DNA of 64,000 nucleotides from an uncultured Acidobacteriia bacterium (GTDB taxonomy: Bacteria; Acidobacteriota; Terriglobia; Bryobacterales; Bryobacteraceae), in NCBI GenBank assembly GCA_903907865.1, contig CAIVPR010000003.1, positions 1 to 64,000 on the forward strand. The letters are read 5' to 3'. Of this stretch, positions 27,672-47,349 are shown piece after piece. Every line of letters starts with the position of its first letter. Position 1 is the stretch's first letter. The notes beneath the pieces are model-generated. The model saw only the letters and a list, made by a program, of their open reading frames with translations, was not told where the DNA came from and did no database searches. Made by a program: the position numbers and the translations under genes.

Positions 27672-30600
27672 TTACGGCCCGGTAGTGAAGTAAGTGTTGC
27701 TGCCGCCATATACGTTGCCGGCCTCGTCGCTGACATTGAACACCCCCAGATAGTACTGGATATTCACAGCCAGAGCCGCCGTTGGCGTAAAGGTCACCGT
27801 GAGGTTGTCGGAAGACACGGTCAGCGTCCCCGGCACGCTGGTCCCCGTGCTGCTGTTGATCAGGTACACGTTGGACGAGTTCAGCGTCAGAGGATTGATG
27901 GGCGCGCTGAACAGCACCGTCGGCGCGACCGTCTTCGATACCGCCGTGGTCCCGTAAGCGGGCGTGATCGTCGCCGTAGGCCTCGCCAGAGCCACCTGCG
28001 TCCCCGTGGTGAACGTCTGGGTCGCGGTCGCCATCGCATTGCCCGCCAGATCGACCACCCCGGCAATCGTCAGCGTAAACGTCGTGCTCGGCGTCAGCAA
28101 CGCGGGAGGCGTCAGCGACAGTGTCTGGTTCCCGTTGCTGAAAGCCGTGGTGACCGGAATCAACGTCTTGCCCGCCGCCAGCGTAATGCCCGAGATCGTA
28201 TTCGGCTGGATCGGCTCGCTAAACAGGATCTGGACCGTCAGATCCGTCGGCACACCGGTAAAGGTGTTCGGCGGATTGGTCGAAATGACGGTTGGGGCGC
28301 TGGTCACGGCTGCCGACGCGGTGGTGAAGCTGGCACTGCTCCCTCCGAAGTAATTCCCGTTGATGTCCCGCACGTTTCCGTACTGGTTCCAATACATGTA
28401 GTAGCTGTGCGCGGCGGCCAGATTCGCGGTCGGCGCCACCGACAGCGTCTTGCCATCCGGCGACAACATCGGCGCGCTCGTCGTGGTGTACGAACCGTTG
28501 TTCACCGTGTTGTCGTAGAGGGTGATCGCGTTCGTGCCCAAGGTGGTCGGATCAAGCGGTATCGGGCTCGTCACGAACAATGCGCTGTTGATCGGAATGC
28601 CCTTGCTGCCGCTGACCGGGAGCGAACTGGAGGCGTAGGTGTAGCCAAACGTGGCTCCCGCCGCCGTCGTAAAGGTCGCCGTCGTGCCGCTAGCCGTCTG
28701 CAGGGCGTTGCCCGACGGATCCTGCACCGCCGAGGTCGCGGTCACAGTCACCGGCGTGTTGGCCGGGAACGTGCCGTAGGGAGTCACGATCACATCCTGC
28801 TGCGTATTCGTCCCGTAGAGGTTCGTGAAGCTGATCGCCGCCGGGGTAATCGCCTGCCCGCCCGCCGTCAATTGGATGCTGCCGCTGGCCCCCGTCGATA
28901 CCGTCAACGGGTTCAGCGGCTTGCTGAAGTGCAGATACACCTGCGCTGCTTCCGAGACGCCCACTGAAGTGTCCGGAGGCGTGATCGAACTCACCGCAGG
29001 CTGGACCGTGTCGGTCGCGGAGCCCACCGTGAAGCAGTAGGCCGCGGGATTCACCAAGGCCAGCCCGGTAGTGTCTTTCACGTTGGTGTTCACGGTGAAG
29101 CAATAGTTCGGCGGCGTGGTGCCCAAGTTGTTCTTCGGCGTCATCCGAATCACATTCGGGGCCCGCATCGACACCGTTACCGGAATCAGCTGCCCGTTCT
29201 GCTGGATGCACAAGCTAACGTTACTCGTAGTGGCACCGCACGGCGATACACTGCTGGCCGTGGCCGACGTCAGAGTCGTGGCGTCAATGGGCTTTGAGAA
29301 CTGGATCTCCACCACTGGATTCAGAGGCACACTCTGGGCCCCGTTCGACGGGATGTAGCCCGTGATAACCGGTGCCACTGTCGTCAAGTTTGCCACTGTC
29401 GTGAACTGTCCTGAGTAGGAGTAGGCTTGGTTGCCGAAGGTGTTCAGCGCCGTGGTCGGCAGGAAGACCTGGATCAAGGCACCGTTGGCGAACGGCGCGG
29501 TCGGGGTGAAGGTCAGGATGGTCCCGGTGGGATCCAACGCTGCCTTGCCCGCAACAAGCACGCCATTCTGCGAAACCTGCAGACCGGCCGTGGTTGTCGA
29601 CGGGTCCATCGCCTGGTTCATGAAGAGGGTTACCGGCGAAGTCAACGGCACGTTCGTCGCGCCGCTCGCGGGCCTCTGGCTGTTCACAGACGGTCGGCTG
29701 TTGCTACCCGGCGCGCCGGTCGTGAACTGCATTTGCAGGTTCGGGAAGGCGCTGCTGGAAGCCAGCGCATTGCCGGAGAGGTCCTGCACCCCGTTGGTCG
29801 CCGTCACGATGATGGTGCTGCTCGAGGTCAGACCAGAGGGCGACAGCGTTACAGAAGTACATGGGCTGGAGCAGTTGATCGAGGTGCTCAACCGGTTCGG
29901 ACCGTTAAAGACTGCGAACGTGTTCGAGTTGATTGTGTTCGGGTTCAGCGACTTCGAGAAGTTCAGCGTGATGATCGTGTTCAGTCCTTGGTTGGTGGAC
30001 TGGCTGGACGGCGTTACCGAGGTCACGGTCGGCGGCGTGGTGTCCACCGTGTTGGCCGTGGTGAAGCTGAAGCTGCCGCCTTGGGCGTTGTTGCCGACAT
30101 AATCTTGGACGTAGGCTTGGTAGTTCGGGTAGACGTAGACCACCGTGCCCGCCGGAACAGGAGCCGTAGGCGTGAACACAACAGTACTGGTTGTGGCTGT
30201 GTTCGTCACCGCGTAGGTACCGGGAATCTGCAGGTTGCTCTGTTGCCCGTAAATGTAGATATTGCTTGCGTTGACCGTGATCGGATTGATCGGCTTGCTG
30301 TAGTTGATGGTGATGCTAGCGTTGGTCGCGATCCCCTTCGCGCCGTTCGTGGGCACTGTGGTGGTAATGATCGGAGAAACGGTGTCGGTGACACCCGTCG
30401 CGTCGGTCGAGAACTGGCCCGTAAACGCCGTAAGCAGGTTCCCCGTGATGTCGGTGAAACCCGACACCTTCACGGTGTAGCTGGTCGATGCCGTCAGGTT
30501 GGCACTCGGCTTGAACGTGATCGTTTGCAGGTCCGACGCCAAGGTCGCGGTACCGTTCACGACGGTGCCACCCGTCGTCGTCTTCAATTGCACCGGAGTA

Positions 30601-33600
30601 GTCGAGTTGAATGACATCGCACTGATCTGTTTGTTCGCGTAGAACTGCAGCGTAGTGTTGATCGCGCTGGTCGTCCCGTTGGGCGGATTCATCTGGCTGA
30701 TCACCGGCGCGGTCGTGTCCGTCCCGGTTCCCGTAATGAAGCATGGGCTGCTGTAGACCGAATTGCCGACCAAGTCGTACGCGCCGCTCACTTGGAAGCA
30801 ATACGATGTCGATGGCTGGAGCGCGCTTGTCGGCTGGATGGTCACGCTCTTGCGGTCTGCAGACGACACGATGTTGATCCCGATGTACTGGCTGGTATTG
30901 CTGTTGTACATCGAGACAGTGGACTGGTTGAACGAAACGACGTCCATCCGCTTGCTGAATTGGAAGCTCGGCGTCGCGTTTGTGCCAGCCCCACGGTAAC
31001 CATTGGGTGGATTGTAGGCCGTCACCTGCGGGTAGCTCAAATCCGCGCCCGGAGCCGTGGTGAACGAACTCATCACCGCAGCGCTCAAGCCATTCCCGGC
31101 GGCGTCCTTCACCCCGCTGACCGTCAGCGTGTAGGGCGTGCTTCCCTGCAAGAGCGCGGGAGGCGTCAGTGTCAGCAGCGCGTTGCCTTGACTCAGGGTG
31201 TTCACCACCCCTTGCAGCGCGGTCCCGCCCTGGCTCAGAGTCACCCCGGAAACTGTCCCGGCCTGTACCGGCTCGTTGAACAGCACCTGGATCAGCCCGT
31301 TGATCGGCACCCCGGTCTGCCCGCTCTCGGGATTCGTGTATGTAACCTGCGGCGTCAGGGCCGAAGGAGTGATCGACGTGTAGAAGTTGAACGAGCTGCC
31401 CTGCAGTCCGTTCCCCACAAGGTCCGTCACATAGTAGTTCCAACCCACTTGGAACTGCCGCCCGACGCCCAGGCTTGTCGTGTTGCCGCTGCTGTCCGTC
31501 GGCGTAAAGGTAGCCGTCAACGCGTTTGGAGACAGGGACCAAGTTCCGGTCAGGTACACGCCCAGCGTGTAGTCGTAAACCGAAATGTTGTTGTAGTTCA
31601 CCAGCGTCAGTGGATCCACCGGTTTGCTGAAGTTCAGCGTGACCACCGACGTGTTCGTCACCGTCTGCTGGCTGAACGGGTTCGTACTGATCACCTTGGG
31701 AGCCACCGAATCCGGGCCCACCTGGGTCGTGAAGCTGGAAGTGAACGGCACCACATTGTTCCCGGCCAGATCCTGCACATTCGAAACCGCCACATTGATC
31801 ACGGCGTTGTCCGGCAGGATGTTGATCGGAGTCATAAGCACTTCCGTCGCGCTGATGTTGCCTGTGCCGAGGTTCACGAAGCTGATGCTCATCGGAGCAA
31901 TCGGCGTGGCCGTCCCGTTCACCAGCGTCGTGATTTGGACGGTGCTCGTCGACACTGTCAGCACATTGATCGGCTTGTTGAACCGCACGTGCACCGGGGC
32001 ATTTGTCCCGACGCCCGTGCTCGCGTTGGGCGGCGTAATCGAACTCACCTGCGGCTGCGCCGTGTCCTTGCCCGTACCGGTATAGAAGTAGTTCGAGAGC
32101 CCGTTCACCAAGGCGTTGCCGTTCGTGTCCTTCACGTTCGTGGAGACCGTGTAGCAGTATCCCGGACTGTTGAAATTCGCAAACAGCGAACTGCTCGGCG
32201 TAATCCGCACAGTATTCGGCGTCCGCAGGCTCACGGTGCTGTTCACCAACTGACCGTTGTTGCCGCAGAACGCTAGCACGAAGTTCGTGCTGTTGACCGT
32301 AGTTGGATCGATCGGCTTGCTGAAAGCGATGTCGATCGGCGCGTTGGTCGGCACGCCAGCGTAACCGTAATACCCGTTCCCCGCCCCGTTGAACGGCACG
32401 GTCGAGGTGATCGTCGGAGCCACCTTGGTCGTATCCGGCGCGACTGTGAACGCGTACTGGAAGTTGTACAGCTGGTTGCCAAAAGTATCCTTGGCGTTCT
32501 GCGAGAAGAACACCTGCACGTACGCCCCCGCCGTGAACGGATTGGTGGGCGTGAACTGGACCACCTGGTTGTTGCCGCTCATCGTCACCGCGCCGGGCAC
32601 GATGGCACCGTTCTGCGACACGTTGAAGGCCCCGGCGACCGTAGTCGGGTCCAGCGGTTCATTGATGAAGAGGATCACCGGGCTGTTCGTCGGAACCTGC
32701 GACGCATTGCTGCCCGGCCGCTGTCCGGTCACGCTGGGCCGCGTTCCCGAGGTCACCTGCACCGTGGTGAAGGTGCTGCTGAAGTCCGCCAGCGGATTGC
32801 CAGCGAGGTCCTGGACCCCGCTGGTTGCGACCACCGTGATCGTCACATTGTTCGGCAGACCCGTGGACATCGTCACCATCTGGTAATCGGACGACAGGCT
32901 GACGCTGGGATTCAACCGGGTGGTGCCGTTGAAGAGGTTGAAGGTGGAGGTGCCGACCGTGTTCGGGTTCAGGGGTTTGGAGAAGGTCAGCGTGACCGTC
33001 GTATTCAGGCCGAGGCTTTTGGAGCCGTTGGTCGGCGTGACCGAGGTGATGGTCGGCGGCGTGGTGTCGGCCGTCCCTGCGGTGTAGAAGCAGACCTGGG
33101 CGTTGTTGAACGTATTGCCGGAGAGGTCGAGAACCGACGCGTTGTAGCCGGAGTAGACGCAGATTTGCGACGAGGACGGCAGGTTGGCGGACGGCGTGAA
33201 AGTGACAATGCCGCCGGGTCCGTTGTTGCCGGAGTTGTCGATGGTGTAGGTACCTGCCAGATGGAGGCTGTTGTTGTTGGTGTAGACGTACAAGCTGCTC
33301 GAATTCACCGACAGCGGGTCGACGAACTTGCTGTAGGTGACCACGATGGGAGCGTTGACGGCAACCGGCGTCTTCGTCGCGGGGGAGGTGGGGCTGGTAC
33401 TGCCCTGGGTGTTGAGCGGGCTGAAACTCAGGATGATGCCGTTCGAGGTGTCGGCGGAAGTGCCGGTCGAAAACTTCGAGGTGAACGGGGTTACGACGTT
33501 GCCGACGTAATCGACAGCGTTCTGGACGCTGATGGTGTAGTTGGTGCTGGCTGCAAGGTTGGCGTTGGTCAGGTAGTTCAGCGTGAGGCCGTCGGTACTG

Positions 33601-36600
33601 AGGGAGGCGGCTCCGGGGACCGCTACACCGCCTGTGGTCAAGGTGATGGCGGGAGTCGGGGTCGAGGTCGACGTGGTGAGGCTGATCGAGTACGTGCCAA
33701 GGTTGTCGTAGTTGTAGCTGTCGTTGAACGCTACATAGAGATCCGCACCACCTGCGGGAACTGTCACCGTCTTGCCGAAACCGATTACAAACCAGTCGAG
33801 ATTCGTCGGTTGGGACTTAAACGTCCCGACAAGAGCCCCAAGCCGGATCGCCGCGGGATCAGTGGTGTCGGTGGTCTGTTTTCCTGCAAATCCAAAGTTC
33901 TGCCCGTTTACATCAACATTGCTACCACCTCCAGTGAAGTGATTGATCCCGTCGCCGCCATATGTTGTCGGATAAACGGCGCCTTGCAACGTGAAGTTGT
34001 AATTCGACGAGGGTGTCCCGGCCAAAGAGCCGTCTGGATTAACGGGGATTTGGCAATTACACACCGCTGCGCCGTGGGCAGCTGCTTTGATCGTGAGCGA
34101 AGTGCCACCAGAGAAAAAGCCGAGGTCGTTCGCGGGCGTGCCGCCCCTCTGTCCAGGGCCAACTGTAGTGGGCATCACTACCCCGCCCGCTTCGTTCAAA
34201 AACGCGAACTGGCTCAGAGGCTTGCTCAACTGCACCGACACCAGCGAGTTCAACGGCACGCCCGTCGCCCCGCTCGGAGGCGTCACCTGCGTCACCGTCG
34301 GAGCGGTCGTGTCGTTTGCCGTTCCGGTCGTAAAGCAGGAACTGAACCCGTACAGATTGTTGCCGTACAGGTCCACAATGGTGCTTGACGTGTACGACGA
34401 ATTCAGATACCAGCAATAGCGCTCATTGGCGGCGTACGGACTCGTCGGCACGAACGACGCCGTTCGCCGATCCGCCGACACCGTCACTGCTCCCAACACC
34501 GCCAGCCCCGAATTGTTGTCCACGACCACGAAACTGGTGTTCGACACCGTCATCTGGTTGATCCGCGTGCTAAAGCGCGCCTGCAGCGTCACATTCCGCC
34601 CGATCCCCGTGATGCTGTTCGGCGGGTTGTACGACGTCACCGTCGGTTGCGACGTCTGCGCCGCCGTATCCACCGTGAACGTGAACGCCACCGTGTTCGA
34701 AATCACGTTCCCCGCGTTGTCCGTCACCCCCGGCGTCGTCGACACCGTCACCGTCCCCAGCGCATACGGGTTCGTCGGCGTGAAAATCAGTTGAGTGTCG
34801 TTGTTCTGGAAGCTGAACGCCCCCGGCACCGACACCCCGTTCTGCGTCACCTGCACTCCGTTGATCGCCGTCACCTCGTTGATCGACGTGCTGAACTGGA
34901 TCATCACCTGCGCGTTCACGCTGATCCCCGCGTCGCCGTTTTGCGGACTGTAGCTGGTGATCGAAGGCGCGGTCGTGCTGGTCGCGAACCCCGTCGTGAA
35001 GTAGTAACTGGGGGCGTTCGTCATCTTATTCCCCACCAGATCTTGGATCGTCCCGTTCTGGTTGAGGAACACGTCGATCTGCCGACCGACCGGCAACGCG
35101 CTCGTCGGCGTGAACGTCGCAATCCTGCCCGACGAATCCAACGTCACGCTGCCCGGCAGGTAGCAGCCGGTCGTCGTGTCGTACATCATCAACGTGATGA
35201 ACTTGTATGTGCCATTCGCAGTTGTCGGGAAATTGCACGCGTTGGTGGTATTGATCCCGGTCACCAGCGTAGTGCCATCGATCGCCTTGCTGAACTGGAT
35301 CGTGAACGCCGCGTTGATCGGGACACCCGTCTCGGCGCTGAACGGACTGGTCCGCGAAACCGTCGGCGGCGTCAGGTCGGCAATCGCGTTCGTCGTAAAC
35401 GTGCCGGTAAAGGCCGCAGCCATCGGCACGCCGGTCGTCGTACGGTACGCCGTCGCCTTTACTGTGTAGGTGGTGGAAACCAGCAGGTTCTGCGCAGGCT
35501 GGAATGTGAGCTGCGTGCCGTCCGACGAGAAGGTCGCCGTCCCGTTCACCGTCGCCCCGGCACCGGTCACCGTGACCGTGCCGTTCGTGTCCTTGGCCAG
35601 AATCGCCTGCAGCGCCGCGATCTGCGTCGGATTCAGCATCGCGTGGCTGAACACCAGCGTGAGGGCGCTGTTGATGTAGGTGCCGCTGTTGGTGCCCGTG
35701 CCGGTGACCGTGGTCACCTTCGACACCGTGGGGACCGCGCGGTCCTTGTTGGTCGGGTCGGTTCCGCCGAGGTACTCCTGCAGGTTGGTGAGCCCGTCCG
35801 CAGCTGCGGAAGCGACGCCGGCGTCGTTCACCAGCGGATTGGTGCCGAAGTGGACCTCCCAACCGTCGGGCATGCCGTCGCCGTCCGTGTCCGCGTTGAG
35901 CGGGTTGGTGCCGAGCGCGATTTCCTGCGCGTTGGTGAGCCCGTCGCCGTCGGAATCCTGGTTGGGGAGCAGGATCGCGAGGCTGTTGGTGGCGTTGCCG
36001 AAAATGCCGGAATTGCCGATGCTGTTGGTGGCTACGAACACCGCGCTGGCCGCGCTGCTGGCCGTGCTGATGGTTAGGGTGGCGGAGGTCGCGGTGATGG
36101 CCGAGTTGGTGATGGTGAGGGCGGCTGGGACGGTGGCGGGCTGCGCCGTGAACGTAGCCCCGGTGAGGTTGACGCCCGACAGGACGACGGTGAGCCCGGT
36201 CTGCCCGGCGAGCACGTAGGGGGTGCTGATGGAGGTGATGGTGGGCGCGGCGAGCGGCGTGAAGTTGGTGGTGGAAGTGACGCTGACGCCCCCAACGGTG
36301 ACCGTGATCGGCCCGACCGTGGCCGTCGCGGGGACGGTGGCGGTGATGGTGTTGGCCGTCGCGGCGGTGACCGTCGCCGCGACCCCGTTGAATTTGACGG
36401 TGTTGCTGGACGCGGTGGTGCTGAAGCCCGACCCGACGAGGGTGACCGACGCACCAGGGGATGCGGAGGTGGGATTGAAACTTAGGAGCGAGAGGGAGCC
36501 GTTCGCCGCACCGCGGTTGATGGCGACGATATTACCGGCGGGGTCGTAGACGTATTGGACGATTACACCGGTGGAGTCGATGGCAGCGGTGAGCTGGCCG

Positions 36601-36704
36601 GCGTTGTCGTAGATGTATTGGTAGGTGATGGGAGATTGGGCGAGCAAACTCGCCCCCGCCACAAAACCTAGAAGGAACGCCGCCACACTGATTTTGCCGT
36701 TCAT
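27672..36704 (-). CDS. Giant secreted protein of 22 Ig-like domains with an inserted LecA-like domain
   Basis: About 3010 residues; ATG 36704 gives a signal peptide (MNGKISVAAFLLGFVAGASLLAQ). In order: two RHS-type YD units (YIYDNAGQL, YVYDPAGNI), an IPT/TIG domain, a second Ig-like domain, two calcium-binding thrombospondin type 3-like repeats (DSDGDGLTNAQE, DTDGDGMPDGWE), then 22 SbsA/Big_5-type Ig-like domains of about 110 residues each, with the pattern PT.T...P..G...N....F...(I/L). Domains 5-13 (30720-34313) and 14-22 (27672-30719) are a duplicated block. A LecA-like lectin domain interrupts domain 5 at about 33655-34205. No membrane anchor or sorting tail is seen at the C-terminus. It should be a secreted or surface adhesin. 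It is the last gene of the surface operon. Confidence 0.85.
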   Translation of the reverse strand: MNGKISVAAFLLGFVAGASLLAQSPITYQYIYDNAGQLTAAIDSTGVIVQYVYDPAGNIVAINRGAANGSLSLLSFNPTSASPGASVTLVGSGFSTTASSNTVKFNGVAATVTAATANTITATVPATATVGPITVTVGGVSVTSTTNFTPLAAPTITSISTPYVLAGQTGLTVVLSGVNLTGATFTAQPATVPAALTITNSAITATSATLTISTASSAASAVFVATNSIGNSGIFGNATNSLAILLPNQDSDGDGLTNAQEIALGTNPLNADTDGDGMPDGWEVHFGTNPLVNDAGVASAAADGLTNLQEYLGGTDPTNKDRAVPTVSKVTTVTGTGTNSGTYINSALTLVFSHAMLNPTQIAALQAILAKDTNGTVTVTGAGATVNGTATFSSDGTQLTFQPAQNLLVSTTYTVKATAYRTTTGVPMAAAFTGTFTTNAIADLTPPTVSRTSPFSAETGVPINAAFTIQFSKAIDGTTLVTGINTTNACNFPTTANGTYKFITLMMYDTTTGCYLPGSVTLDSSGRIATFTPTSALPVGRQIDVFLNQNGTIQDLVGNKMTNAPSYYFTTGFATSTTAPSITSYSPQNGDAGISVNAQVMIQFSTSINEVTAINGVQVTQNGVSVPGAFSFQNNDTQLIFTPTNPYALGTVTVSTTPGVTDNAGNVISNTVAFTFTVDTAAQTSQPTVTSYNPPNSITGIGRNVTLQARFSTRINQMTVSNTSFVVVDNNSGLAVLGAVTVSADRRTASFVPTSPYAANERYCWYLNSSYTSSTIVDLYGNNLYGFSSCFTTGTANDTTAPTVTQVTPPSGATGVPLNSLVSVQLSKPLSQFAFLNEAGGVVMPTTVGPGQRGGTPANDLGFFSGGTSLTIKAAAHGAAVCNCQIPVNPDGSLAGTPSSNYNFTLQGAVYPTTYGGDGINHFTGGGSNVDVNGQNFGFAGKQTTDTTDPAAIRLGALVGTFKSQPTNLDWFVIGFGKTVTVPAGGADLYVAFNDSYNYDNLGTYSISLTTSTSTPTPAITLTTGGVAVPGAASLSTDGLTLNYLTNANLAASTNYTISVQNAVDYVGNVVTPFTSKFSTGTSADTSNGIILSFSPLNTQGSTSPTSPATKTPVAVNAPIVVTYSKFVDPLSVNSSSLYVYTNNNSLHLAGTYTIDNSGNNGPGGIVTFTPSANLPSSSQICVYSGYNASVLDLSGNTFNNAQVCFYTAGTADTTPPTITSVTPTNGSKSLGLNTTVTLTFSKPLNPNTVGTSTFNLFNGTTRLNPSVSLSSDYQMVTMSTGLPNNVTITVVATSGVQDLAGNPLADFSSTFTTVQVTSGTRPSVTGQRPGSNASQVPTNSPVILFINEPLDPTTVAGAFNVSQNGAIVPGAVTMSGNNQVVQFTPTNPFTAGAYVQVFFSQNAKDTFGNQLYNFQYAFTVAPDTTKVAPTITSTVPFNGAGNGYYGYAGVPTNAPIDIAFSKPIDPTTVNSTNFVLAFCGNNGQLVNSTVSLRTPNTVRITPSSSLFANFNSPGYCYTVSTNVKDTNGNALVNGLSNYFYTGTGKDTAQPQVSSITPPNASTGVGTNAPVHVRFNKPINVLTVSTSTVQITTLVNGTATPIAPMSISFVNLGTGNISATEVLMTPINILPDNAVINVAVSNVQDLAGNNVVPFTSSFTTQVGPDSVAPKVISTNPFSQQTVTNTSVVTLNFSKPVDPLTLVNYNNISVYDYTLGVYLTGTWSLSPNALTATFTPTDSSGNTTSLGVGRQFQVGWNYYVTDLVGNGLQGSSFNFYTSITPSALTPQVTYTNPESGQTGVPINGLIQVLFNEPVQAGTVSGVTLSQGGTALQGVVNTLSQGNALLTLTPPALLQGSTPYTLTVSGVKDAAGNGLSAAVMSSFTTAPGADLSYPQVTAYNPPNGYRGAGTNATPSFQFSKRMDVVSFNQSTVSMYNSNTSQYIGINIVSSADRKSVTIQPTSALQPSTSYCFQVSGAYDLVGNSVYSSPCFITGTGTDTTAPVISQMNPPNGTTSAINTTLQFYANKQISAMSFNSTTPVQLKTTTGGTVVNGTATLASDLQTITFKPSANLTASTSYTVKVSGFTDITGNLLTAFTGQFSTDATGVTDTVSPIITTTVPTNGAKGIATNASITINYSKPINPITVNASNIYIYGQQSNLQIPGTYAVTNTATTSTVVFTPTAPVPAGTVVYVYPNYQAYVQDYVGNNAQGGSFSFTTANTVDTTPPTVTSVTPSSQSTNQGLNTIITLNFSKSLNPNTINSNTFAVFNGPNRLSTSINCSSPCTSVTLSPSGLTSSSTIIVTATNGVQDLSGNALASSSAFPNLQMQFTTGAPGSNSRPSVNSQRPASGATNVPLTSPVTLFMNQAMDPSTTTAGLQVSQNGVLVAGKAALDPTGTILTFTPTAPFANGALIQVFLPTTALNTFGNQAYSYSGQFTTVANLTTVAPVITGYIPSNGAQSVPLNPVVEIQFSKPIDATTLTSATASSVSPCGATTSNVSLCIQQNGQLIPVTVSMRAPNVIRMTPKNNLGTTPPNYCFTVNTNVKDTTGLALVNPAAYCFTVGSATDTVQPAVSSITPPDTSVGVSEAAQVYLHFSKPLNPLTVSTGASGSIQLTAGGQAITPAAISFTNLYGTNTQQDVIVTPYGTFPANTPVTVTATSAVQDPSGNALQTASGTTATFTTAAGATFGYTYASSSLPVSGSKGIPINSALFVTSPIPLDPTTLGTNAITLYDNTVNNGSYTTTSAPMLSPDGKTLSVAPTANLAAAHSYYMYWNQYGNVRDINGNYFGGSSASFTTASAAVTSAPTVISTNPPNTFTGVPTDLTVQILFSEPIQPNTISGITLAAGKTLIPVTTAFSNGNQTLSLTPPALLTPSTTFTLTIAGVVDLAGNAMATATQTFTTGTQVALARPTATITPAYGTTAVSKTVAPTVLFSAPINPLTLNSSNVYLINSSTGTSVPGTLTVSSDNLTVTFTPTAALAVNIQYYLGVFNVSDEAGNVYGGSNTYFTTGP
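33655..34205 (-). other. LecA (PA-IL)-like domain inserted in Ig-like domain 5
   Basis: About 180 residues break an otherwise regular Ig-like domain. The end reads AIRLGALVGTF, then TVPAGGADLYVAFNDSYNYD and NLGTYSISL, which parallels the calcium- and galactose-binding end of the LecA/PA-IL lectin family (ND....NNSGSY.V). The insert has less strongly GC-biased codons than its surroundings and contains two Cys in VCNCQIP. It accounts for the length difference between the two nine-domain blocks. Confidence 0.6.
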
Positions 36705-36810: not shown

Positions 36811-37245
36811 CTACGGACGGTTCTGCGGTGTCTTAGTAATGTTGTGCCACCCACCTGCACCCGGGTCGGCACTGGACCACACATTGAATCCGGCGAATTG
36901 ATAGACCGTCACGTTTACATCGTTCGGCGATCCCTGAATCGTCACCGGAGCGCCCGTCTTGTTGGCGAGATACTGCGCTAAGTTGGCATCGAAGCTCTTA
37001 TCATCCCCTCCTTTTGTGCCTTCGCATATGATCGCCCGAATCGGCACTTCTGGATCCCAACCGTGCTTGATGATCTGCTCTCCAACATCCTTGACCGAGA
37101 CTGGCTTGCCGTCATCGCTGCTCTTCGTATAGATGTGGTTAGGGTCGGCAGGATTACCATGACCAGCGATGGTAAAGTACCACCAGCTGTTATACGCTTG
37201 CGCTTCAGTGTAGGAGCCATCGGTCTTATCTACAATATTCACATC
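36811..37245 (-). other. C-terminal toxin-like domain of the RHS protein
   Basis: The 145 residues after the conserved RHS core boundary (DPTGL) form a distinct domain. The motifs YFTIAGHGNP and RAIICEGTKGG, followed by FDANLAQYLANKTGAPVTIQG, follow the strand-His-strand-Cys layout of caspase-like folds and of known RHS C-terminal domains with a ...CNTG...AQ.LA...GAPV pattern. Proteolytic activity is an inference. Confidence 0.55.
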
Positions 37246-40200
37246 AACCAGCCCAGTTGGGTCAATGCGGTTGATGGGGCTATTCCCTACATACGAATAA
37301 CCGTTTGCGCCGCCGCCTAGAATTCCTAGCGGGTCCTCACTCAAGAAGCGCCCAGTAGTACTGTCGTAGTAGCGAGCGCGATCATAGTACAGTCCTCCAG
37401 AAACTGACGACATACCTGCGAACTGGGAAATAGTGACCGATCCAGCAACCGTCTGAGCTCCGAAAGGTTCGTAGAACCCGTGCTGAGCAACATTTCCTGT
37501 AGCGTCGGCATACACTGTAGAGCTTCCGACTTGGTCGTGCAGGGGAAACACCGTTGAGGCACCCTGAACCATAGCGATTACAGAGTTCGCGTGGCGACCA
37601 TCGAGGACAGACGTGACAATTGAGTCGCCTTGCTGAATGGACACAACGTTCGAGACGTCATCAACCACGTACCGCTCGGTGATGTCCTGGCCCGCTGACT
37701 TCGTCCGCTTCTGTATCATTTGGCCAGCCGGATCGTAGACCATCGACGTCACCGCGCCGGCTGGCGACTGAATGCTCTGGAGACGGCCCCGAGCGTCCCA
37801 AGCGTAGCTAGTGGTTCCAACCGATGAAGTTTCAGTCAGCCGATTGCCATCCGCATCAGTCGTGTAGTTAGCGCTGCCAAAGGAAGTCACTTCATTCGCG
37901 GCATCAAATACCCCCACGGCCGCCGATGTTGATAGAGGCAGCCCCAAGTCAGCAGACGCAGCCGAGATCTCGTCGTCGGCGTCGTACGAGAAGGTTCGCG
38001 AGAGCAGTACGCTGGTTCCGAATGTCTCAGAAATGCTGGCAAGCCTACCCACCGAATCAAAGGCATAGGACCCGGCGACACCGTTGGACCTAGCAGCGGC
38101 AATAACCAAGTTTCTAGCGTCGTACGTGTACCCGACGGATGCAGATCCCAGCGTTGCGCTTACCAAATTGCCATTGGCGTCGTAAGCGTACTTTGCGGCT
38201 GCCTGGCCATTTACTTGCCGAGAAACCACCCTGCCCAGAGCGTCACGCGTGTAGCTAAGGGAACCCGTCGGGCCCACCATCCGCACAAGACGGCCAGTCA
38301 GATCGTAGGTCATACTAAAGGTGCCAGACTGCGAATCAACTATGCTGACAATCCGACCGTACGAATCATAGCTGCGCTGGACAGTCGCGTCCGAATACGT
38401 CTCGGACACGAGTCTATTTAGCGAGTTGTATGAGTAGGCAACATGCAGGCCGCGCCGATTAGTAAGGCCGACAAGATTGTTGTTTAGGTCATACTGATAG
38501 GACAAGATTCTGCCCAACTGATCAACCCTAGAGGCGACGCGGCCCGCCGCGTCATACTTGATAGTCGTTTTTCCGCCGTTGGGATCAGTCACGAACGAAA
38601 TAAGCCCGGCACCATCATAGGCCAGCAGCGTCGAATGACCACTTGGATCAGTTATAGCGGTCGTCTCGTCTCCTGCGTTGAAACCCAGTGCCGAGGTGCG
38701 CCCCAAAGCGCTCATCCGAGCCACAAGGCGGGACACGGCATCATAGCTGAACTGCGTTTTCTGACCCAGTGGATTAGTACTAGCGACGAGGTTGCCGACC
38801 GAGTCATAGGCAAAGTTCGTCCGATTGCCAGCCGGATCCTTCACGCTCGTTATTAGCCCCGTTCCGTCGCGAGTGAAGGCAACAACGCCGCCTAGGGCGT
38901 CGGTAATTTTAACCAAGTTGCCGCGTGTATCATATTGGCACGTCGCGACGTTCCCCATGGGATCGGCCACGGAGGCAATATGGTCAAAGGCCGGCTCGTA
39001 TGTGAAAGTCCATGTATTACCGAGGGAATCCGTCTTGGTAAGCATGTTCCCCCTTGCGTCGTAAGTAAAACTCACGTCGCCAGACTTTGTGTCACCGCAA
39101 ACTGGACATGTGCCAGAGCCGGCCATAGACAGTATGCGGTTTGACCCAGACTGACGAGCGATTTTTCGGGTTTGGCCTGCTGCATCCGTGACACCAATGA
39201 CGAACCCCTGGGTACTGAACCTGTAGATCGTGACATTTCCAAGGGAGTCGGTGACCGTCGTCTGTGTGATCGGACTCGTTGGCACCAAGGGGTTCACCAG
39301 TGTATAGCCGTAACTCATGGTCCCGCCACTTGGAAGTGTCTGACTAGCCACGCGCCCGTTGGCGTCGTAGGTATTGGTGCCCGTTGCGCCGTGTGGGTCC
39401 GTTATCTTTGTCAGTCGCCCTTGAGAGTCATACTGATACGTCGTTACGCCCCCCAAGACGTTGGTGAATGTCGCCAGATATCCAGCTGAATTGTATGTAT
39501 AGCTCGCCGCCCTTCCAATCGGATCCGTGACTTTCGTCACGTTATAACCGCTGTACTCGAGCAGGAGCTTCCGGCCGACAGGATCGTCGATCTCGGCGAT
39601 AAGCTGCGGCTGTCCTGACTGACGGACAATTGTCGTTATATTTCCGTTTGGGTCACCTATTGCCACGAGGACGGAGCCGGTCGGAGGTATCCCAGGAACA
39701 AATTGGTAGTAGGTGCCACCCTTCATCGTCAGGGTGGTAGTTCCATTGCTTGAAGGGACCATGACCCACCCCGCCACCATTGGGACCGTGGTGTTGGTCA
39801 GGGTTCCGTCGGCCTGTAGCGTGAAGGGTATTCGCGTCCCGCTCGGCAGAATCAAATTGATGACCGCAGCGCTTTGGGGAGAAAGCGTGTCCAGCCTGTA
39901 TTCAAAGTTGTGGTAGGAGCCCCATCCGAACGGGCCAGGAATCGGCCCCTGAGCCGCGAGCGTCCGATAGGTTCGAGTCAGCGAAAGCGAGCCCCGATCA
40001 CCTGCGAAGGATATATCCGTCGACGTAATGACATCGACCCCCGAGGCCAGATCAACAGGCTCACCTGCCGACGGATTATCCAATCCCGGCGTCGGATCCG
40101 CCTGATTCGGCGGCCCCGCCAAAGGCCCATGCCAATCAAAATGCGTAATCCCATACCGCTGCTGCTTCGTCCCCGTCGAAGGATCCACATCCGGAGTAAT

Positions 40201-43200
40201 CGTAGTCCCGTCCGTCGAGATCGTACCCGTCCCGTACGGCACCATACGGCCCTTGGTCGGGTCCAGCGTCATCAGCGGCACGTTCGTCCCCGGCGCGGTG
40301 TTCAGCGTATTCGGATACCACACCGCCACCGGCGCGCTCGCGTTCGATTCCGCGGGTTGGAAAGCGACAATAAAGGCCCCGACTCCCGCCGTGGTCGTCG
40401 GCATCACGTCCGGCAACCGGTCCACAGGCACTTCGATCGCCGCCAGCGGAAACGGGTCCGGCTTGGTCCCGTCCTGTTTCGTGAACGTGGTCCCGGCGTA
40501 CACCGTGATCTTCAGGCCGGGGATGGTCTTGAAGGTGTACGACTGGTCCACCGTGTCGTTCTGGATGACGCTGAACGTTTCCGCTGTGTTGATAATCGGC
40601 AGGTGGACCAGCACGGGCGACACCACCACCGACCCGCTCACGAGCGTGAACACCAACTGCAGACCCGCATAGGTGCCCACCGGCGAGGTCACGGAATTGC
40701 CGTCGAACGCCACCAATTGAGGCCCGACGCAGTTGGCGGCCAGAGTCGTCAGGGCGAAGTTGCCCGCCGCGTCCGAGGTCGTCTTGCCCGTGCAGCCGGT
40801 CGCGTTGCCGCTGCCGTCCTGCCCCACCATGCTGACGGCGACGCCGACGAGCGGGGTTTCAGCAGGGTCGGCCACCACAGTACGTCCGAGGAAGGAGGTG
40901 GTGGGGGCCGTGACCGCCAATGACGCGGTGGTCGTTTGCGAAACCGGCAGGCCGTCCACGGTGGCGGCGGCGGAAACGGTGAGGGTGGAGGTCGCGACGG
41001 CTTGGGTTGTGGGCGCGGTCAGGGTCAGGATTGAGGTCTGCCCGGCAGAGATGCTGGCTGGTTTGAAGGCTGCGGTGACGCCCGAGGGGAGTCCTGAAAT
41101 GGCCAGCGGGGCCAACTGGCTGAAGCCGTTGGTGCTGGCCATCTGGACCGAGTAGGAGACCGTCTGGCCCTTGATGACCGTGGCGCTGGCGGGCGTCGTG
41201 CTCAAGGTGAACGTGCTGGAGGGCGTGATGGTGAGGGTGCCGGAGGAGGTCGCGGTCTGGCCCACCAGGGCGGCGGTGACGGTGCCGGTCGCGGTTCCGG
41301 CCGGGATCACGAACATCAGGCTGGTGGCGGTGGCGCTGGCGAGCGGCGCCGTGAGCGTCCCCCCGGCCTGCGCCGCGAGCGACATGGTTGCTGCGGTGGT
41401 GCCCGCAACCAAATTGGTGCCGGTCACGGTCACGGTGCTGCCGATGGTGGCCGACGCGGGGGTGAAGCTGGTGATGGTGGGGGCGGGCGGCGCGGCCATG
41501 GTCAGCGCAACGGTGCCCGAGGTGAGGCCCGAAGTGCCGTTCTGCACCGCCACGGCGAAGGAACCGGAACTGCCCAAGGTGGTGGAGCCGGAAATCTGGG
41601 TCGCGGTGGCACCGGAGAGGCTGCCGTTGAGGATCGTGCAGGGCGCGCAGCCGGGGCCGTTGATCAGGACCTGCGAGGTGGTGGGGACGAAGTTCGTACC
41701 GGTGATGATGAAACTGAACGAATTCGCGGCGACCGGGGTGGTCGGGGTGGTGGAAAGGCTGGTGATGGTCGGGGGGGTGCCGCCCACGGCGAGCGGGAGC
41801 GTGCCGGAGGAAGCACCGGTCGCGGTGTTGACCACGGCGACGGTGAAGCTGCCGTTGCCCAGGGTGGCGGGGCCGGTGAGCGAGGTGGCGGACTTGGCGG
41901 TCAAGGCGGAGTTGGCGACCGTGCAGGGCGTGCAACTGGGGCCGGTGATCGCGAGGGTCGCGGTGGCGGGGTCGAAATTTGTGCCAACGATGGTGAGGCT
42001 GAACGCTTGGCCCCCCACCGGAGGCGCGGGCGTGGTGGAAAGGCTGGTCAGCGTGGGCACCACTCCGACGGTCAAAGCCAAGGAGGTGCCGGAGGTCGCG
42101 CCGGTCGCCGTGTTCTGAACCGCCACCGTGAAGGATCCTGCGCCGAGAGTCGCGGGGCCGGTGATGGACGTTGCCGACTTCGCCGTCAAAGCCGAGTTGG
42201 CGACCGTGCAAGGCGTGCAACTCGGGCCGGTGATGACGATGGTCGCCGTCGCAGTGTCAAAACCCGTGCCGACGATGGTCAGACTGAACGCCTGGGATGC
42301 GAGCGGTGTCGCGGGAGTGGTCGAAAGGCTCGTCAGGGCGGGCGGCGTGGCAACGGTCAGAGGCAGGGTGCCGGAAGTCGCACTGGTGGCCGTGTTCTGA
42401 ACGGCAATCGTGAAGGAACCCGCGCCCAACGTTGCCGGACCAGTGATGGACGTCGCCGACTTCGCCGTCAAGGCCGAATTCGCCACCGTGCAAGGCGTGC
42501 AACTCGGGCCATTGATCACAATGGTTGCCGTTGCCGGATCGAAATTCGTGCCCACGATGGTGACGCTGAATGCCTGGCCGCCAATCGCAGTAGCGGGCGT
42601 GGTCGAAAGGCTCGTCAAAGCGGGGGCCGTCCCGACCGTCAACGCCAGCGTGCCGGAGGAGGCACCGGTCGCGGTATTCTGGACCGCGACAGTGTAGGAA
42701 CCGCTACCCAGGGTCGCCGGACCGGTAACCGAAGTCGCCGACTTCGCGGTCAAGGCTGAATTCGCCACGGTGCAGGGCGTGCAGCTCGGGCCGTTGATGA
42801 CAATAGTCGCCGTCGCCGGGTCAAAGCTTGTACCAACGATGGTCAGGCTGAACGCCTGGGAGGCGATGGGAGTGGCAGGCGTAGTCGAAAGGCTGGTCAG
42901 CGCGGGGGGCGTCACGACCGTCAGGGCCAAGGTGCCGGAGGTCGCACCGCTCGCGGTGTTCTGCACTGCCACGGTGAACGACCCGCCACCCAGCGTGGCC
43001 GGACCCGTGATCGAAGTCGCCGATTTCGCCGTCAGGGCCGAATTCGCCACAGTGCAGGGCGAGCAACTCGGGCCGGTGATAACGATGGTCGCGGTCGCAG
43101 GGTCGAAGTTCGTGCCGACAATGGTCAGACTGAACGCTTGGGTCGCGATTGGTGTCGCGGGCGTGGTCGAAAGGCTCGTGACGGCGGGGCCGCTGCCGAC

Positions 43201-45018
43201 GGTCAGCGGCAAAGTCCCGGAAGTCGCAGTCGTCGCGGTGTTCTGAACTGCTATCGAGTAAGCCCCGTTCGCGAGTGTGGTCGAGCCCGTCACCGAGGTG
43301 GCGCTCTTGGCGGTCAGAGCCGAATTCGCAATCGTGCAGGGAGTACAGCTGGGACCGTTGATGATGATTTGGGCTGTGGCCGGATCAAAACCCGTGCCCA
43401 CTACAGTAATGCTGAAGGCTTGGGAGGCGATGGGCGTAGAGGGGGTGGTGCTCAGGCTGGTCAGAACCGGAGGCGTGACCACTGACAGAGGCAGGGTCCC
43501 CGAAGTCGCACCAGTCGCCGTGTTCTGCACCGCTATGGTGAAGGACCCGCCGCCCAACGTGGCTGGGCCGGTGATCGAGGTGGCCGACTTCGCCGTCAAA
43601 GCCGAATTGGCCACAGTGCAGGGCGAGCAGCCGGGTCCGTTGATGACGATGGTCGCGGTTGCCGCGTCAAAACCGGTGCCGACAATCGTCAGACTGAGGG
43701 CCTGTCCGCCGATGGCCGTCGAGGGCGTCGTCGAAAGGCTGGTCAAAGCCGGAGGGGTGGCGACGGTCAAGGCCAATGTCGCCGAGGTCGCGCCTGTCGC
43801 CGTATTCTGCACAGCGACGGTGAACGACCCGCCGCCCAACGTCGCAGGGCCGGTGATCGACGTCGCCGACTTCGCCGTCAGTGCCGAATTCGCCACCGTG
43901 CAGGGCGAACAGCTTGGCCCGTTGATCAAGATGGTGGCCGAAGCCGGATCGAAACTGGTCCCGACGATGGCAAGGCTGAACGCCTGGCCACCAATCGCCG
44001 TCGAAGGTGTGGTCGACAGGCTGGTCAGTGTCGGCAGTGCGGCAACCGTCAGCGCGAGGGTGCCGGAAACGGGACCAGACGCGCCGTTCTGGACGGCCAC
44101 GGTGTAGGATCCGGCGGTGGCCAGGGTGGCCGGTCCGGTGACCGAGGTCGCGCTTTTGGCCGTCAGAGCCGAATTGGCCACGGTGCAGGGGGAGCAACCC
44201 GTGCCGGTGATCACAAGGATGGCGCTGGCGGGATCGAAATTCGCGCCCGCGACGGTCAGCGAGAACGCCTGGGTCGCAACCGGAGTGCTCGGCGTCGTGG
44301 AGAGACTGGTGACCGAAGGTCCGCTGCCGACAGTCAGCGCCAAGGTTCCCGAAATCGCCGTCGTCGCCGTATTCCGCACCGCAACCGTATAGGCTCCGTT
44401 GACCAGAGTCGCCGAACCGGCAACCGACGTGGCGCTCTTAGTGGTCAGCGCACCGTTGGCCAACACGCATGGAGTGCAGTTCGGCCCGTTGATCACGATC
44501 TGGGCGGACGCCGGGTCAAAGTTCGCACCTACCACGTTCAGGGAGAATGCCTGTCCTGCAATCGGTGAAGCAGGGGTCGTGGAAAGCGAGGTCACCGAGG
44601 GCGCAATCAGCGCGGCCACGGACACAACTGGAGATTGGACGCGGCGGACCTGCGAAGGAAACGCGCCGTCGCACTGCAACTGGAACGATCCGATGGAGGT
44701 CTCGGTGGAACTGAACTGCAGCGTAAAAATGCCGTCACCGGCGGCCGCGTCGCCGTTCAGGCCGTCATCATGCATCACGCCCAGCACCGCCACATCGGCG
44801 CCCGCCGAAGTAAGCCGCACAAGGTTGATGCCAGCTGCGAGCGGAGTCGGATCGCCCGAGGCCGTATTCAACTTGCAGCTAGCCGTGAATTGGGTCTTGA
44901 CGTTGACCGCCGCATAAACCGGGGAGACGGTCGGGGTGGAAAGGGTGGGCGTTGCCCCGACCATGAGCGGGGCAACTAGTATGCCGACCCAGGCCGCGGT
45001 AAAGTTCACGATTTTCAT
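36811..45018 (-). CDS. RHS-repeat protein with Ig-like stalk and caspase-like C-terminal domain
   Basis: A 2735-residue exported protein. It has a signal peptide (MKIVNFTAAWVGILVAPLMVGA), an N-terminal beta domain, eleven tandem repeats of about 93 residues (about 41500-44605, each with a CxPC pair), an IPT-like domain, an Ig-like domain, a carboxypeptidase-regulatory-like domain, and a DUF6531-like entry domain (DLASGVDVITSTDISFAGDRG) to a long YD-repeat shell. The RHS core ends in YDSTTGRFLSEDPLG and NPINRIDPTGL-type sequence near 37246. The last 145 residues are a variable domain with AGHG (H2620) and IICEGTKGG (C2665), a His-Cys pair like clan CD peptidases. No immunity gene follows; the giant Ig-like gene comes next. 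It overlaps the upstream gene by four bases. Confidence 0.88.
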   Translation of the reverse strand: MKIVNFTAAWVGILVAPLMVGATPTLSTPTVSPVYAAVNVKTQFTASCKLNTASGDPTPLAAGINLVRLTSAGADVAVLGVMHDDGLNGDAAAGDGIFTLQFSSTETSIGSFQLQCDGAFPSQVRRVQSPVVSVAALIAPSVTSLSTTPASPIAGQAFSLNVVGANFDPASAQIVINGPNCTPCVLANGALTTKSATSVAGSATLVNGAYTVAVRNTATTAISGTLALTVGSGPSVTSLSTTPSTPVATQAFSLTVAGANFDPASAILVITGTGCSPCTVANSALTAKSATSVTGPATLATAGSYTVAVQNGASGPVSGTLALTVAALPTLTSLSTTPSTAIGGQAFSLAIVGTSFDPASATILINGPSCSPCTVANSALTAKSATSITGPATLGGGSFTVAVQNTATGATSATLALTVATPPALTSLSTTPSTAIGGQALSLTIVGTGFDAATATIVINGPGCSPCTVANSALTAKSATSITGPATLGGGSFTIAVQNTATGATSGTLPLSVVTPPVLTSLSTTPSTPIASQAFSITVVGTGFDPATAQIIINGPSCTPCTIANSALTAKSATSVTGSTTLANGAYSIAVQNTATTATSGTLPLTVGSGPAVTSLSTTPATPIATQAFSLTIVGTNFDPATATIVITGPSCSPCTVANSALTAKSATSITGPATLGGGSFTVAVQNTASGATSGTLALTVVTPPALTSLSTTPATPIASQAFSLTIVGTSFDPATATIVINGPSCTPCTVANSALTAKSATSVTGPATLGSGSYTVAVQNTATGASSGTLALTVGTAPALTSLSTTPATAIGGQAFSVTIVGTNFDPATATIVINGPSCTPCTVANSALTAKSATSITGPATLGAGSFTIAVQNTATSATSGTLPLTVATPPALTSLSTTPATPLASQAFSLTIVGTGFDTATATIVITGPSCTPCTVANSALTAKSATSITGPATLGAGSFTVAVQNTATGATSGTSLALTVGVVPTLTSLSTTPAPPVGGQAFSLTIVGTNFDPATATLAITGPSCTPCTVANSALTAKSATSLTGPATLGNGSFTVAVVNTATGASSGTLPLAVGGTPPTITSLSTTPTTPVAANSFSFIITGTNFVPTTSQVLINGPGCAPCTILNGSLSGATATQISGSTTLGSSGSFAVAVQNGTSGLTSGTVALTMAAPPAPTITSFTPASATIGSTVTVTGTNLVAGTTAATMSLAAQAGGTLTAPLASATATSLMFVIPAGTATGTVTAALVGQTATSSGTLTITPSSTFTLSTTPASATVIKGQTVSYSVQMASTNGFSQLAPLAISGLPSGVTAAFKPASISAGQTSILTLTAPTTQAVATSTLTVSAAATVDGLPVSQTTTASLAVTAPTTSFLGRTVVADPAETPLVGVAVSMVGQDGSGNATGCTGKTTSDAAGNFALTTLAANCVGPQLVAFDGNSVTSPVGTYAGLQLVFTLVSGSVVVSPVLVHLPIINTAETFSVIQNDTVDQSYTFKTIPGLKITVYAGTTFTKQDGTKPDPFPLAAIEVPVDRLPDVMPTTTAGVGAFIVAFQPAESNASAPVAVWYPNTLNTAPGTNVPLMTLDPTKGRMVPYGTGTISTDGTTITPDVDPSTGTKQQRYGITHFDWHGPLAGPPNQADPTPGLDNPSAGEPVDLASGVDVITSTDISFAGDRGSLSLTRTYRTLAAQGPIPGPFGWGSYHNFEYRLDTLSPQSAAVINLILPSGTRIPFTLQADGTLTNTTVPMVAGWVMVPSSNGTTTLTMKGGTYYQFVPGIPPTGSVLVAIGDPNGNITTIVRQSGQPQLIAEIDDPVGRKLLLEYSGYNVTKVTDPIGRAASYTYNSAGYLATFTNVLGGVTTYQYDSQGRLTKITDPHGATGTNTYDANGRVASQTLPSGGTMSYGYTLVNPLVPTSPITQTTVTDSLGNVTIYRFSTQGFVIGVTDAAGQTRKIARQSGSNRILSMAGSGTCPVCGDTKSGDVSFTYDARGNMLTKTDSLGNTWTFTYEPAFDHIASVADPMGNVATCQYDTRGNLVKITDALGGVVAFTRDGTGLITSVKDPAGNRTNFAYDSVGNLVASTNPLGQKTQFSYDAVSRLVARMSALGRTSALGFNAGDETTAITDPSGHSTLLAYDGAGLISFVTDPNGGKTTIKYDAAGRVASRVDQLGRILSYQYDLNNNLVGLTNRRGLHVAYSYNSLNRLVSETYSDATVQRSYDSYGRIVSIVDSQSGTFSMTYDLTGRLVRMVGPTGSLSYTRDALGRVVSRQVNGQAAAKYAYDANGNLVSATLGSASVGYTYDARNLVIAAARSNGVAGSYAFDSVGRLASISETFGTSVLLSRTFSYDADDEISAASADLGLPLSTSAAVGVFDAANEVTSFGSANYTTDADGNRLTETSSVGTTSYAWDARGRLQSIQSPAGAVTSMVYDPAGQMIQKRTKSAGQDITERYVVDDVSNVVSIQQGDSIVTSVLDGRHANSVIAMVQGASTVFPLHDQVGSSTVYADATGNVAQHGFYEPFGAQTVAGSVTISQFAGMSSVSGGLYYDRARYYDSTTGRFLSEDPLGILGGGANGYSYVGNSPINRIDPTGLVDVNIVDKTDGSYTEAQAYNSWWYFTIAGHGNPADPNHIYTKSSDDGKPVSVKDVGEQIIKHGWDPEVPIRAIICEGTKGGDDKSFDANLAQYLANKTGAPVTIQGSPNDVNVTVYQFAGFNVWSSADPGAGGWHNITKTPQNRP
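41500..44605 (-). repeat. Eleven in-frame tandem repeats of about 282 bp
   Basis: Inside the RHS gene, each unit encodes about 93 residues starting (P)xLTSLSTTPxTP and carrying GPxCxPCTVANSALTAKSATS and AVQNTATGA.SGTLALTV. Units 3 to 10 are nearly identical in protein and strongly similar in DNA; the outer units 1, 2 and 11 are more diverged. The pattern suggests growth by recombination from the middle. Confidence 0.9.
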
Positions 45019-46865: not shown

Positions 46866-46921
46866 GCAATCCTCCTGTATTGGAAACGTTACCACGCGCT
46901 CCAACAGAAATGCAACAACAA

Positions 46922-46927
46922 ATAATA
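46922..46927 (-). promoter_or_regulatory. Putative -10 element of the surface-protein operon
   Basis: On the minus strand TATTAT lies about 57 bases upstream of GTG 46865 in an AT-rich stretch. The -35 region at the right distance is poor, so this is tentative. Confidence 0.3.
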
Positions 46928-47349
46928 GGTTTTTTGATGCGCCCAAGACATGCGGGGAACATCCCATTACACTTCTGTTTCAGTAGTGGAACCTAACCGC
47001 ATGTTCCCAACCGGTCACAACTTATATTTCAAGTGGAATCAGCAACATCCGAGATTCCTCGCACGTTTTCCGGCCGGGGCATGACACAATGTTCCCGGAC
47101 ACACCCACATCCACGCAAGCGCCGACTCGTGGCGCGCAATCCTGCGTGCCGCGTCGAGAATCCTCTCGACGCATGCCCGGCGGGTCGGTGGGCACAGCCA
47201 CCCAAATGGGTCTGTTCGGCTCTGTTTTGGGCCTGTTTCAAGGTCAAACCAGCCTCCGCCGACACACACGAAAGACAGCTTTTGCAAATGGAATCAATAC
47301 TTTACATGGGTATTCCGCCCCCGAGCCCGCCGCGCGCCATAATGGGCAG
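46928..47349. other. Divergent intergenic region with a hairpin
   Basis: This gap separates the surface-protein operon from the plus-strand genes. A perfect 8-bp stem GCGTCGAG (47151-47158) / CTCGACGC (47165-47172) with a six-base loop is present. The AT-richer end (47281-47310) may hold a promoter for the next gene. Frames in the gap look non-coding. Confidence 0.45.

Follow-up and report, generated by a model that had tools for sequence, protein, structure and literature searches.

Multi-domain super-repeats are known from the immunoglobulin (Ig) and fibronectin type III (FnIII) domains of the titin A-band and from the seven-module super-repeats of nebulin, both as presented in parts of a survey of 24 proteomes in which domain repeats expand several domains at once (PMC1553488). 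In bacteria, excerpts of the respective papers describe giant cell-surface arrays of Ig-like domains of about 100 amino acids (aa) in BAP/BLP of Acinetobacter (PMC4647330) and in MpAFP, whose repeats are presented as identical copies (PMC4083281). Here we analyze a DNA stretch of 64,000 nt, hereafter the window (contig CAIVPR010000003.1, positions 1 to 64,000, from an uncultured Acidobacteriia bacterium), and within it the gene P0001, whose product, the window protein, carries a tandem array of 22 Ig-like domains. The array is of the same giant kind as BAP/BLP and MpAFP but, unlike the MpAFP repeats as described, its places have an identity of their own and recur with a nine-domain period. Compared with titin and nebulin, a single bacterial domain family (Big_5) fills two full periods of nine and a third, and domain-by-domain exchange is seen in relatives; a ruler function of the titin or nebulin kind is not claimed here. 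As in the repeats of the proteome survey, self-similarity peaks at a multi-domain lag, duplication there being often mid-array; unlike in the survey, in whose available text "gene conversion" occurs 0 times, the layout is compared across relatives here and copied tracts are visible (PMC1553488). Among the matches listed in the literature searched (titles and abstract starts), none reported bacterial Ig-like proteins with a super-repeat of nine domains, and no paper was found on Acidobacteria or Solibacter together with Ig-like domains.

The window protein scores 748 bits against the Pfam Big_5 family (PF13205; cut-off 23.6) over 22 stretches, and 22 domains were cut in tandem, the number that a first-pass annotation of the DNA letters had counted. 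Domains nine apart are the most alike, with a mean score of 171.2 at lag 9 (13 pairs) versus 71-109 at every other lag, and none of 20,000 shuffles of the domain order reached the lag-9 mean, whether at lag 9 or at any lag from 1 to 12. That annotation had proposed this dominance of nine-apart likeness and had read common motifs in pairs 7/16, 8/17 and 10/19, all of which are present in the cut domains. The one-to-one correspondence it drew between domains 5-13 and 14-22 was borne out for seven of nine pairs, reciprocal best matches once the insert is excised from domain 5 (5-14, 6-15, 7-16, 8-17, 9-18, 10-19 and 12-21), but not for 11-20 (score 97) and 13-22 (score 102), which are near background; the best partner of domain 11 is 15 and that of domain 13 is 4. 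In the tree of single domains, where partners nine apart had been expected to pair, 7-16, 8-17, 9-18, 10-19 and 12-21 are starred, 1-14 is starred too, and domain 20 pairs with 22 (support 91/82).

The front of the array departs further from the first description. Domain 1, supposed to match 10 and 19, scores only 54 and 54 against them; it groups with 14 (score 150; tree 97/91), and its nearest neighbors in relatives are domains of the domain-5 type. Domains 2-4 do resemble 11-13 (142, 119 and 167), and more weakly 20-22 (100, 119 and 138), as had been suggested, the best partners of 2 and 3 within the protein being 6 and 8 and not the nine-apart ones. The block of domains 5-13 measures 3594 nt (30732-34325) as had been given, and that of 14-22 measures 3051 nt (27681-30731), not 3048; the size difference is indeed an insert of 186 aa in domain 5, although its assignment as a lectin was not confirmed. 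Of the idea that the protein grew by copying nine domains, a period-nine multi-domain duplication is kept as the best account of the layout. A recent event in the window protein itself is not, because relatives, including L106 of another family, have a 21-domain layout and triads of domains 2-4 group by position. As in a super-repeat, domains at a fixed multi-domain lag are the most alike in this protein, and the place within the super-repeat is recognizable across relatives; many full copies are not found, only two periods and a third.

A search of the genus with the second block matched 10 of 19 genomes, and a search of the family 22 of 237. Five genus genomes hold six giants of 4.7-4.9 thousand aa with a C-terminal array of 20 or 21 domains that begins at domain 2, the window's domain 1 being extra; their long head looks TIG-like by eye in G011, where Pfam at E 0.001 listed no TIG. 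Several family genomes encode proteins of about 2000 aa with 15-19 domains. Scored for arrays of at least eight domains, lag 9 is best in 16 of 17 family arrays (window, six giants and nine ~2000-aa proteins, with the homogeneous L061 as exception), in all four further relatives (L064, L065, L067 and L072, beside which five further rows are contigs already counted) and in four of five arrays from other families. The miss is L107, where a ten-domain lag was discarded as a period of its own, being due to one extra domain-14-like module. Overall, lag 9 is best in 24 of 25 distinct proteins, window included (L061 excluded, L107 counted as a miss), though weakly in several. Ordinary arrays long enough for lag 9 never have it best (0 of 5: L061, L081, L087, L090 and L092), and five more foreign arrays of 8-9 domains are too short to show it. 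When eleven distant proteins (the nine of ~2000 aa, L102 and L103) were shuffled jointly in a common register, 1 of 20,000 shuffles reached the lag-9 value at lags 1-12. Arrays of 21 domains are found in G011, G012b, G009b, G017, G014, L064, L065, L072 and L106, of 22 in L107 and the window protein, and of 20 in G009a (which stops at a contig end) and L067 (whose frame starts beside an N). No array of 12 or 30 domains was seen among these proteins of the 21-domain type, to which L108, an array of 13 domains, may belong as a short form. Both array proteins of G201, a 9.5 Mb two-contig genome, have lag 9 best, weak taken alone.

A few related arrays were observed besides. A counterpart with 74% identity to the window protein (L030:1951-4485, G012:C69) breaks off close to where domain 15 ends; the break adjoins an unrelated gene, the gene on the other side is conserved with window positions 25646-27274, and either a deletion or an assembly chimera may be responsible. 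Two adjacent paralogous ~2000-aa array proteins occur in both L055 (G044) and L060 (G207), as separate subfamilies in the tree. Homogeneous Big_5 arrays are found in same-family genomes (L061, L039, L040 and L041), only L061 being long enough for the lag-9 test.

The layout is shared beyond the genus. Among 12 proteins of the 21-domain type, which come from at least two families, best matches in other clades fall in the same class modulo nine in 224 of 250 cases and at the exact place in 146 of 250; the window protein gives 20/21 and 12/21, and L106 gives 20/21 and 14/21. For the ~2000-aa group the figures are 142/198 and 94/198. In a tree of domains 1-3 versus 10-12, the proteins of the 21-domain type fall into two clades, one with their 12 A rows (100/99) and one with their 12 B rows (90/82), so the duplication predates the divergence of these proteins; the window row there includes domain 1 of the window protein, a domain outside the domain-1 class. 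Starred branches in this tree force one label change, and the best tree has three. Judging from these trees, the nine-domain duplication is older than the separation of the window protein from its giant relatives. In a nine-class deep tree that includes the ~2000-aa proteins, a single A clade is rejected (approximately unbiased (AU) test, p 1.6e-5). As regards the material, domain 22 of G009a is a 27-aa stub at a contig end that was included in the block and triad/core trees, excluded by length elsewhere, and thus absent from label-change counts, within/between identities and place-matching; G207b lacks domains 1-4 and L067 lacks 1-2, L107 and L108 were left out of the trees, and gap lengths were used to fill in some domains of the ~2000-aa proteins.

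Flanks and middle of the array have conflicting histories. All 11 of the A triads (domains 2-4) fall in one clade (100/99), as do 10 of 11 C triads (domains 20-22; 97/97), whereas the cores, 5-10 and 14-19, pair within the lineage: window 100/99, L072 99/98, L064/65/67 100/100 and six G proteins 97/97, the group of the latter holding mirrored A and B clades. AU tests reject all core A as one clade (p 4.5e-80) and the window core A joined to the six G cores A (p 1.8e-5); for the triads they reject A and B joined in the window (p 0.02), in L072 (p 0.007) and in L064/65/67 (p 6e-5). Label changes between A and B, counted by place in 20 proteins, amount to 1, 2 and 2 at domains 1-3, to 6, 8, 9, 6, 6, 9 and 5 at domains 4-10, and to 3, 3 and 2 at domains 11-13 (27 rows at domain 1, 36-40 at 2-10 and 30-31 at 11-13). 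In 11 proteins of the 21-domain type they are 1 and 1 (2-3), 4, 5, 6, 4, 4, 8 and 4 (4-10) and 3, 2 and 2 (11-13). Two simpler histories were discarded along the way: an independent duplication in the window lineage, which the first block tree and the deep tree had suggested, was given up once the A triads were seen to group by place, and one unsplit history for all A blocks is rejected by AU.

Two relatives carry copied tracts the size of single domains. DNA identity in L065 reaches 92% for pair 6/15 and 93% for 9/18, with fourfold-site identities of 88 and 89%, and falls to 66 and 60% for 7/16 and 8/17, which lie between the tracts; in 60-base windows, domains 6 and 9 give 80-98%, domains 7-8 give 52-77%, and domains 5 and 10 mostly 60-90%. 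L067 shows 88% for pair 9/18 versus 55-69% for its other core pairs. The tract edges are near domain borders in both proteins, and same-place DNA identity among L064, L065 and L067 is 58-77%. Block copying yields no single-domain tracts, but gene conversion can. Given the copied tracts and the conflicting histories of flanks and middle, later homogenization is favored for the likeness between 5-10 and 14-19.

We consider it likely that nine domains were duplicated long ago and that the cores have since been homogenized recurrently in domain-sized stretches, with gene conversion as the likeliest route, in a rod of Ig-like domains that is probably secreted. The layout of 3+6+3+6+3 domains with period nine, plus one extra front domain in the window protein, would be old, the duplication having preceded the divergence of the window protein from the giants. 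The triads would then have diverged as separate parts, and the two cores of six would have repeatedly been made alike in each lineage by domain-sized exchange between copies, either through gene conversion, which appears likeliest, or possibly through unequal crossing over via a 30-domain intermediate. We infer that the window protein's own likeness arose by the same homogenization. In it, the distance of domains 16-19 and 21 from their partners is about the same as for those of the 74% identical G012 counterpart; together with the lack of a recent tract, this points to an old homogenization.

Several observations weigh against this history. The B triads do not come together in a single clade, and the tree gives no place to the B and C triads of the window. 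With about 110 columns, the trees of single domains are short and weak, and the label-change counts drawn from them are noisy. Against the ~2000-aa group, window domains find the same class in just 9 of 18 cases and the exact place in 5 of 18, and in the deep tree the window and giants cluster together (100/100); outside this cluster the ~2000-aa proteins form separate A and B groups. Most ~2000-aa proteins, L102, L103 and L108 are singly non-significant for lag 9 when shuffled over all lags, and the relatives, nearly all the named ones, are mostly metagenome assemblies. The window protein has no recent tract, its nine-apart pairs sharing 54% of fourfold sites (173/318; domain 5 excluded), and its homogenization is read from trees of diverged domains and, for the triads, from the one AU p of 0.02. 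Finally, pair 9/18, discussed below, is not raised within L072 (31%) and G014 (33%), with 39% in G017.

Other histories could produce nine-apart likeness. One is that the window protein itself grew by one copying of 5-13 into 14-22, its present likeness simply reflecting that event; in its favor, seven of nine pairs are reciprocal best matches and the concatenated blocks of the protein pair at 100/100. We regard this as quite unlikely, given that the 21-domain layout is already in relatives whose A triads share a clade with the window's and that the AU test rejects a union of A and B triads in the window; a single recent block copy also does not predict the unlike pairs 11-20 and 13-22, although unequal rates could blur this. 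The pairing of A and B cores within lineages would equally be obtained from repeated fresh duplication, the array in several lineages shrinking to about 12 domains and growing back to 21 through unequal crossing over shifted by nine domains, a shift that recombination between like cores favors. Yet array sizes are 20-22 in the 21-domain type, with none of 12 or 30, and single-domain tracts (domains 6 and 9 of L065, not 7 and 8) misfit block-sized exchange, which leaves this history improbable.

Selection could also hold nine-apart domains alike with no exchange of DNA, for instance if the nine-domain period mirrored a repeated binding partner, as has been proposed for titin in the part of that work available (PMC10665226). 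Fourfold-site identity in the L065 tracts is, however, 88-90%, compared with 34-66% for other core pairs in the same protein, which selection at the protein level would not bring about; this reading is contradicted in L065 and possible for the window protein, and as a general account we find it scarcely credible. As to domain cutting, assembly collapse or chance, arrays are hard to assemble and a second array gene of the window genome seems broken at contig ends. The pattern nonetheless recurs in separate assemblies, including both proteins of the two-contig G201 genome, and five ordinary arrays cut alike have other best lags, so that the chance of an artifact is negligible. Recurrent domain-sized homogenization after an ancient duplication remains our preferred history.

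Pair 9/18 stands out within it. Across 11 proteins, its mean identity within proteins is the highest of 12 pairs (57%), and between proteins it is the lowest of the 12 (31 and 32%). In L065 and L067 the two domains are 92-93% identical in amino acids within each protein, whereas comparing L065 with L067 place by place gives 55-58%. We take this as a sign that domains 9 and 18 may serve one fast-changing contact. More tentatively, and with some doubt, we speculate that they could be putative twin binding sites that must match, changing fastest between proteins and being copied onto each other within them. A structure model of domain 9 (predicted local distance difference test, pLDDT, 91; 20 sequences) has an Ig fold; its top-scoring Foldseek match is TssM (3.8e-5), and the Ig folds of SbsC, an S-layer protein, and CopC follow at E 4.5e-5 to 5e-5 with about 20% identity, a likeness that concerns the fold of this predicted domain only.

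Coordinates of all features are collected in Table 1.

Table 1. Features of the array gene P0001 and its upstream neighbors in the window.
Feature	Position	Strand	Basis or remark
Ig-like array protein gene P0001	27672..36725	minus	open frame, 3017 aa, GTG start
Single RHS/YD repeat, N terminus, aa 39-70	36516..36611	minus	Pfam RHS_repeat 22.7 bits, cut-off 22
IPT/TIG domain, aa 81-156	36258..36485	minus	Pfam TIG E 1.4e-7
TSP3-type repeat stretch, better of two, aa 257-278	35892..35957	minus	Pfam TSP3_bac E 1e-15
Domain 1, extra domain of 5/14 type	35388..35741	minus	domain scores and tree
Triad A, domains 2-4, position-specific flank	34326..35387	minus	domain cuts, triad tree, label-change counts
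Core A, domains 5-10, probably homogenized with core B	31722..34325	minus	core trees, AU tests, label-change counts
Insert in domain 5, 186 aa	33654..34211	minus	lectin identity not confirmed
Domain 9, partner of domain 18, predicted Ig fold	32079..32438	minus	identity averages and structure model
Triad B, domains 11-13	30732..31721	minus	domain cuts, triad tree
Core B, domains 14-19	28662..30731	minus	core trees, AU tests, label-change counts
Domain 18, partner of domain 9	29025..29393	minus	domain scores, identity averages
Triad C, domains 20-22, C-terminal array end	27681..28661	minus	domain cuts, triad tree
RHS protein P0002, 2735 aa, choice-of-anchor Z repeats	36811..45018	minus	directly upstream of P0001
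650-aa protein, Solibacter C-terminal domain	45015..46967	minus	upstream of P0002, 4-base overlap with it

An in-frame ATG lies 7 codons past the GTG of P0001 and is followed by a signal-peptide-like stretch, as judged by eye. The Pfam matches in the protein are a single RHS repeat, a TIG domain, two TSP3 stretches and the 22 Big_5 stretches, the Ig array extending to the stop codon; no RTX family was found (Pfam, E 0.001), no search having been aimed at a type I secretion signal. RHS/YD proteins have many RHS repeats and a conserved core, and P0001 has a single repeat; its neighbor P0002 has 12 RHS stretches and an RHS-associated core domain by profile searches. The lone RHS repeat opens P0001 as if part of an RHS gene had been fused on. 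P0001 and the upstream genes on the same strand may form an operon. Gene neighborhood offers no hint of function, since no neighbor family is common to more than 3 of 17 array loci. The window genome assembly (7.5 Mb, 186 contigs) seems to encode another long array protein, split between contigs: contig L036 (G000:C91:1-6561) stops within the third Ig domain, and the frame of L037 (G000:C162:78-845), with the last two domains, starts 78 bases from a contig end. Both would presumably be parts of one gene.

For the insert in domain 5, neither Pfam nor NCBIfam gives a match, PDB sequences give none that is convincing, and plasmid records likewise lend no support to its reading as a lectin, for which the PA-IL (LecA) type was considered. 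A single-sequence structure model of domain 5 reaches a pLDDT of only 30.5. No second copy of the insert is found in its own genome, and the other 236 family genomes give one weak match (E 1.7e-4). L106 and L107 carry inserts of about 168-170 aa that are alike (L106:7595-8104 and L107:7885-8388), directly behind domain 5, with no Pfam or NCBIfam family; they are unrelated to the window insert, which sits inside the domain. Domain 5 is hence a place where modules get added.

The heads of relatives vary, with an ASPM-SPD2-Hydin type in L065 and FG-GAP in L102 and L103. The 3017-aa protein is probably a secreted rod of Ig-like domains, and from its sequence a secreted surface fiber or adhesin would fit the signal-peptide-like start, the TSP3 stretches, the variable heads and the Ig-like rod. 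We predict a surface fiber to which further modules can be attached at domain 5.

Giant muscle proteins are the best-known bearers of Ig-like super-repeats; the family described here is bacterial, and its nine-domain period is conserved, the flanks holding their place while the middle exchanges domain by domain. These proteins form a natural series that runs from faint periods to copied domains that are near-identical and allows duplication to be distinguished from gene conversion. They also hold a warning: what is dated by a domain tree or self-similarity plot of a single protein can be homogenization and not duplication. If domains 9 and 18 were indeed twin sites, the rod would have two like sites nine domains apart, and concerted evolution would act on a single selected pair of positions along a bacterial fiber, as expected for a bivalent or self-recognizing contact.
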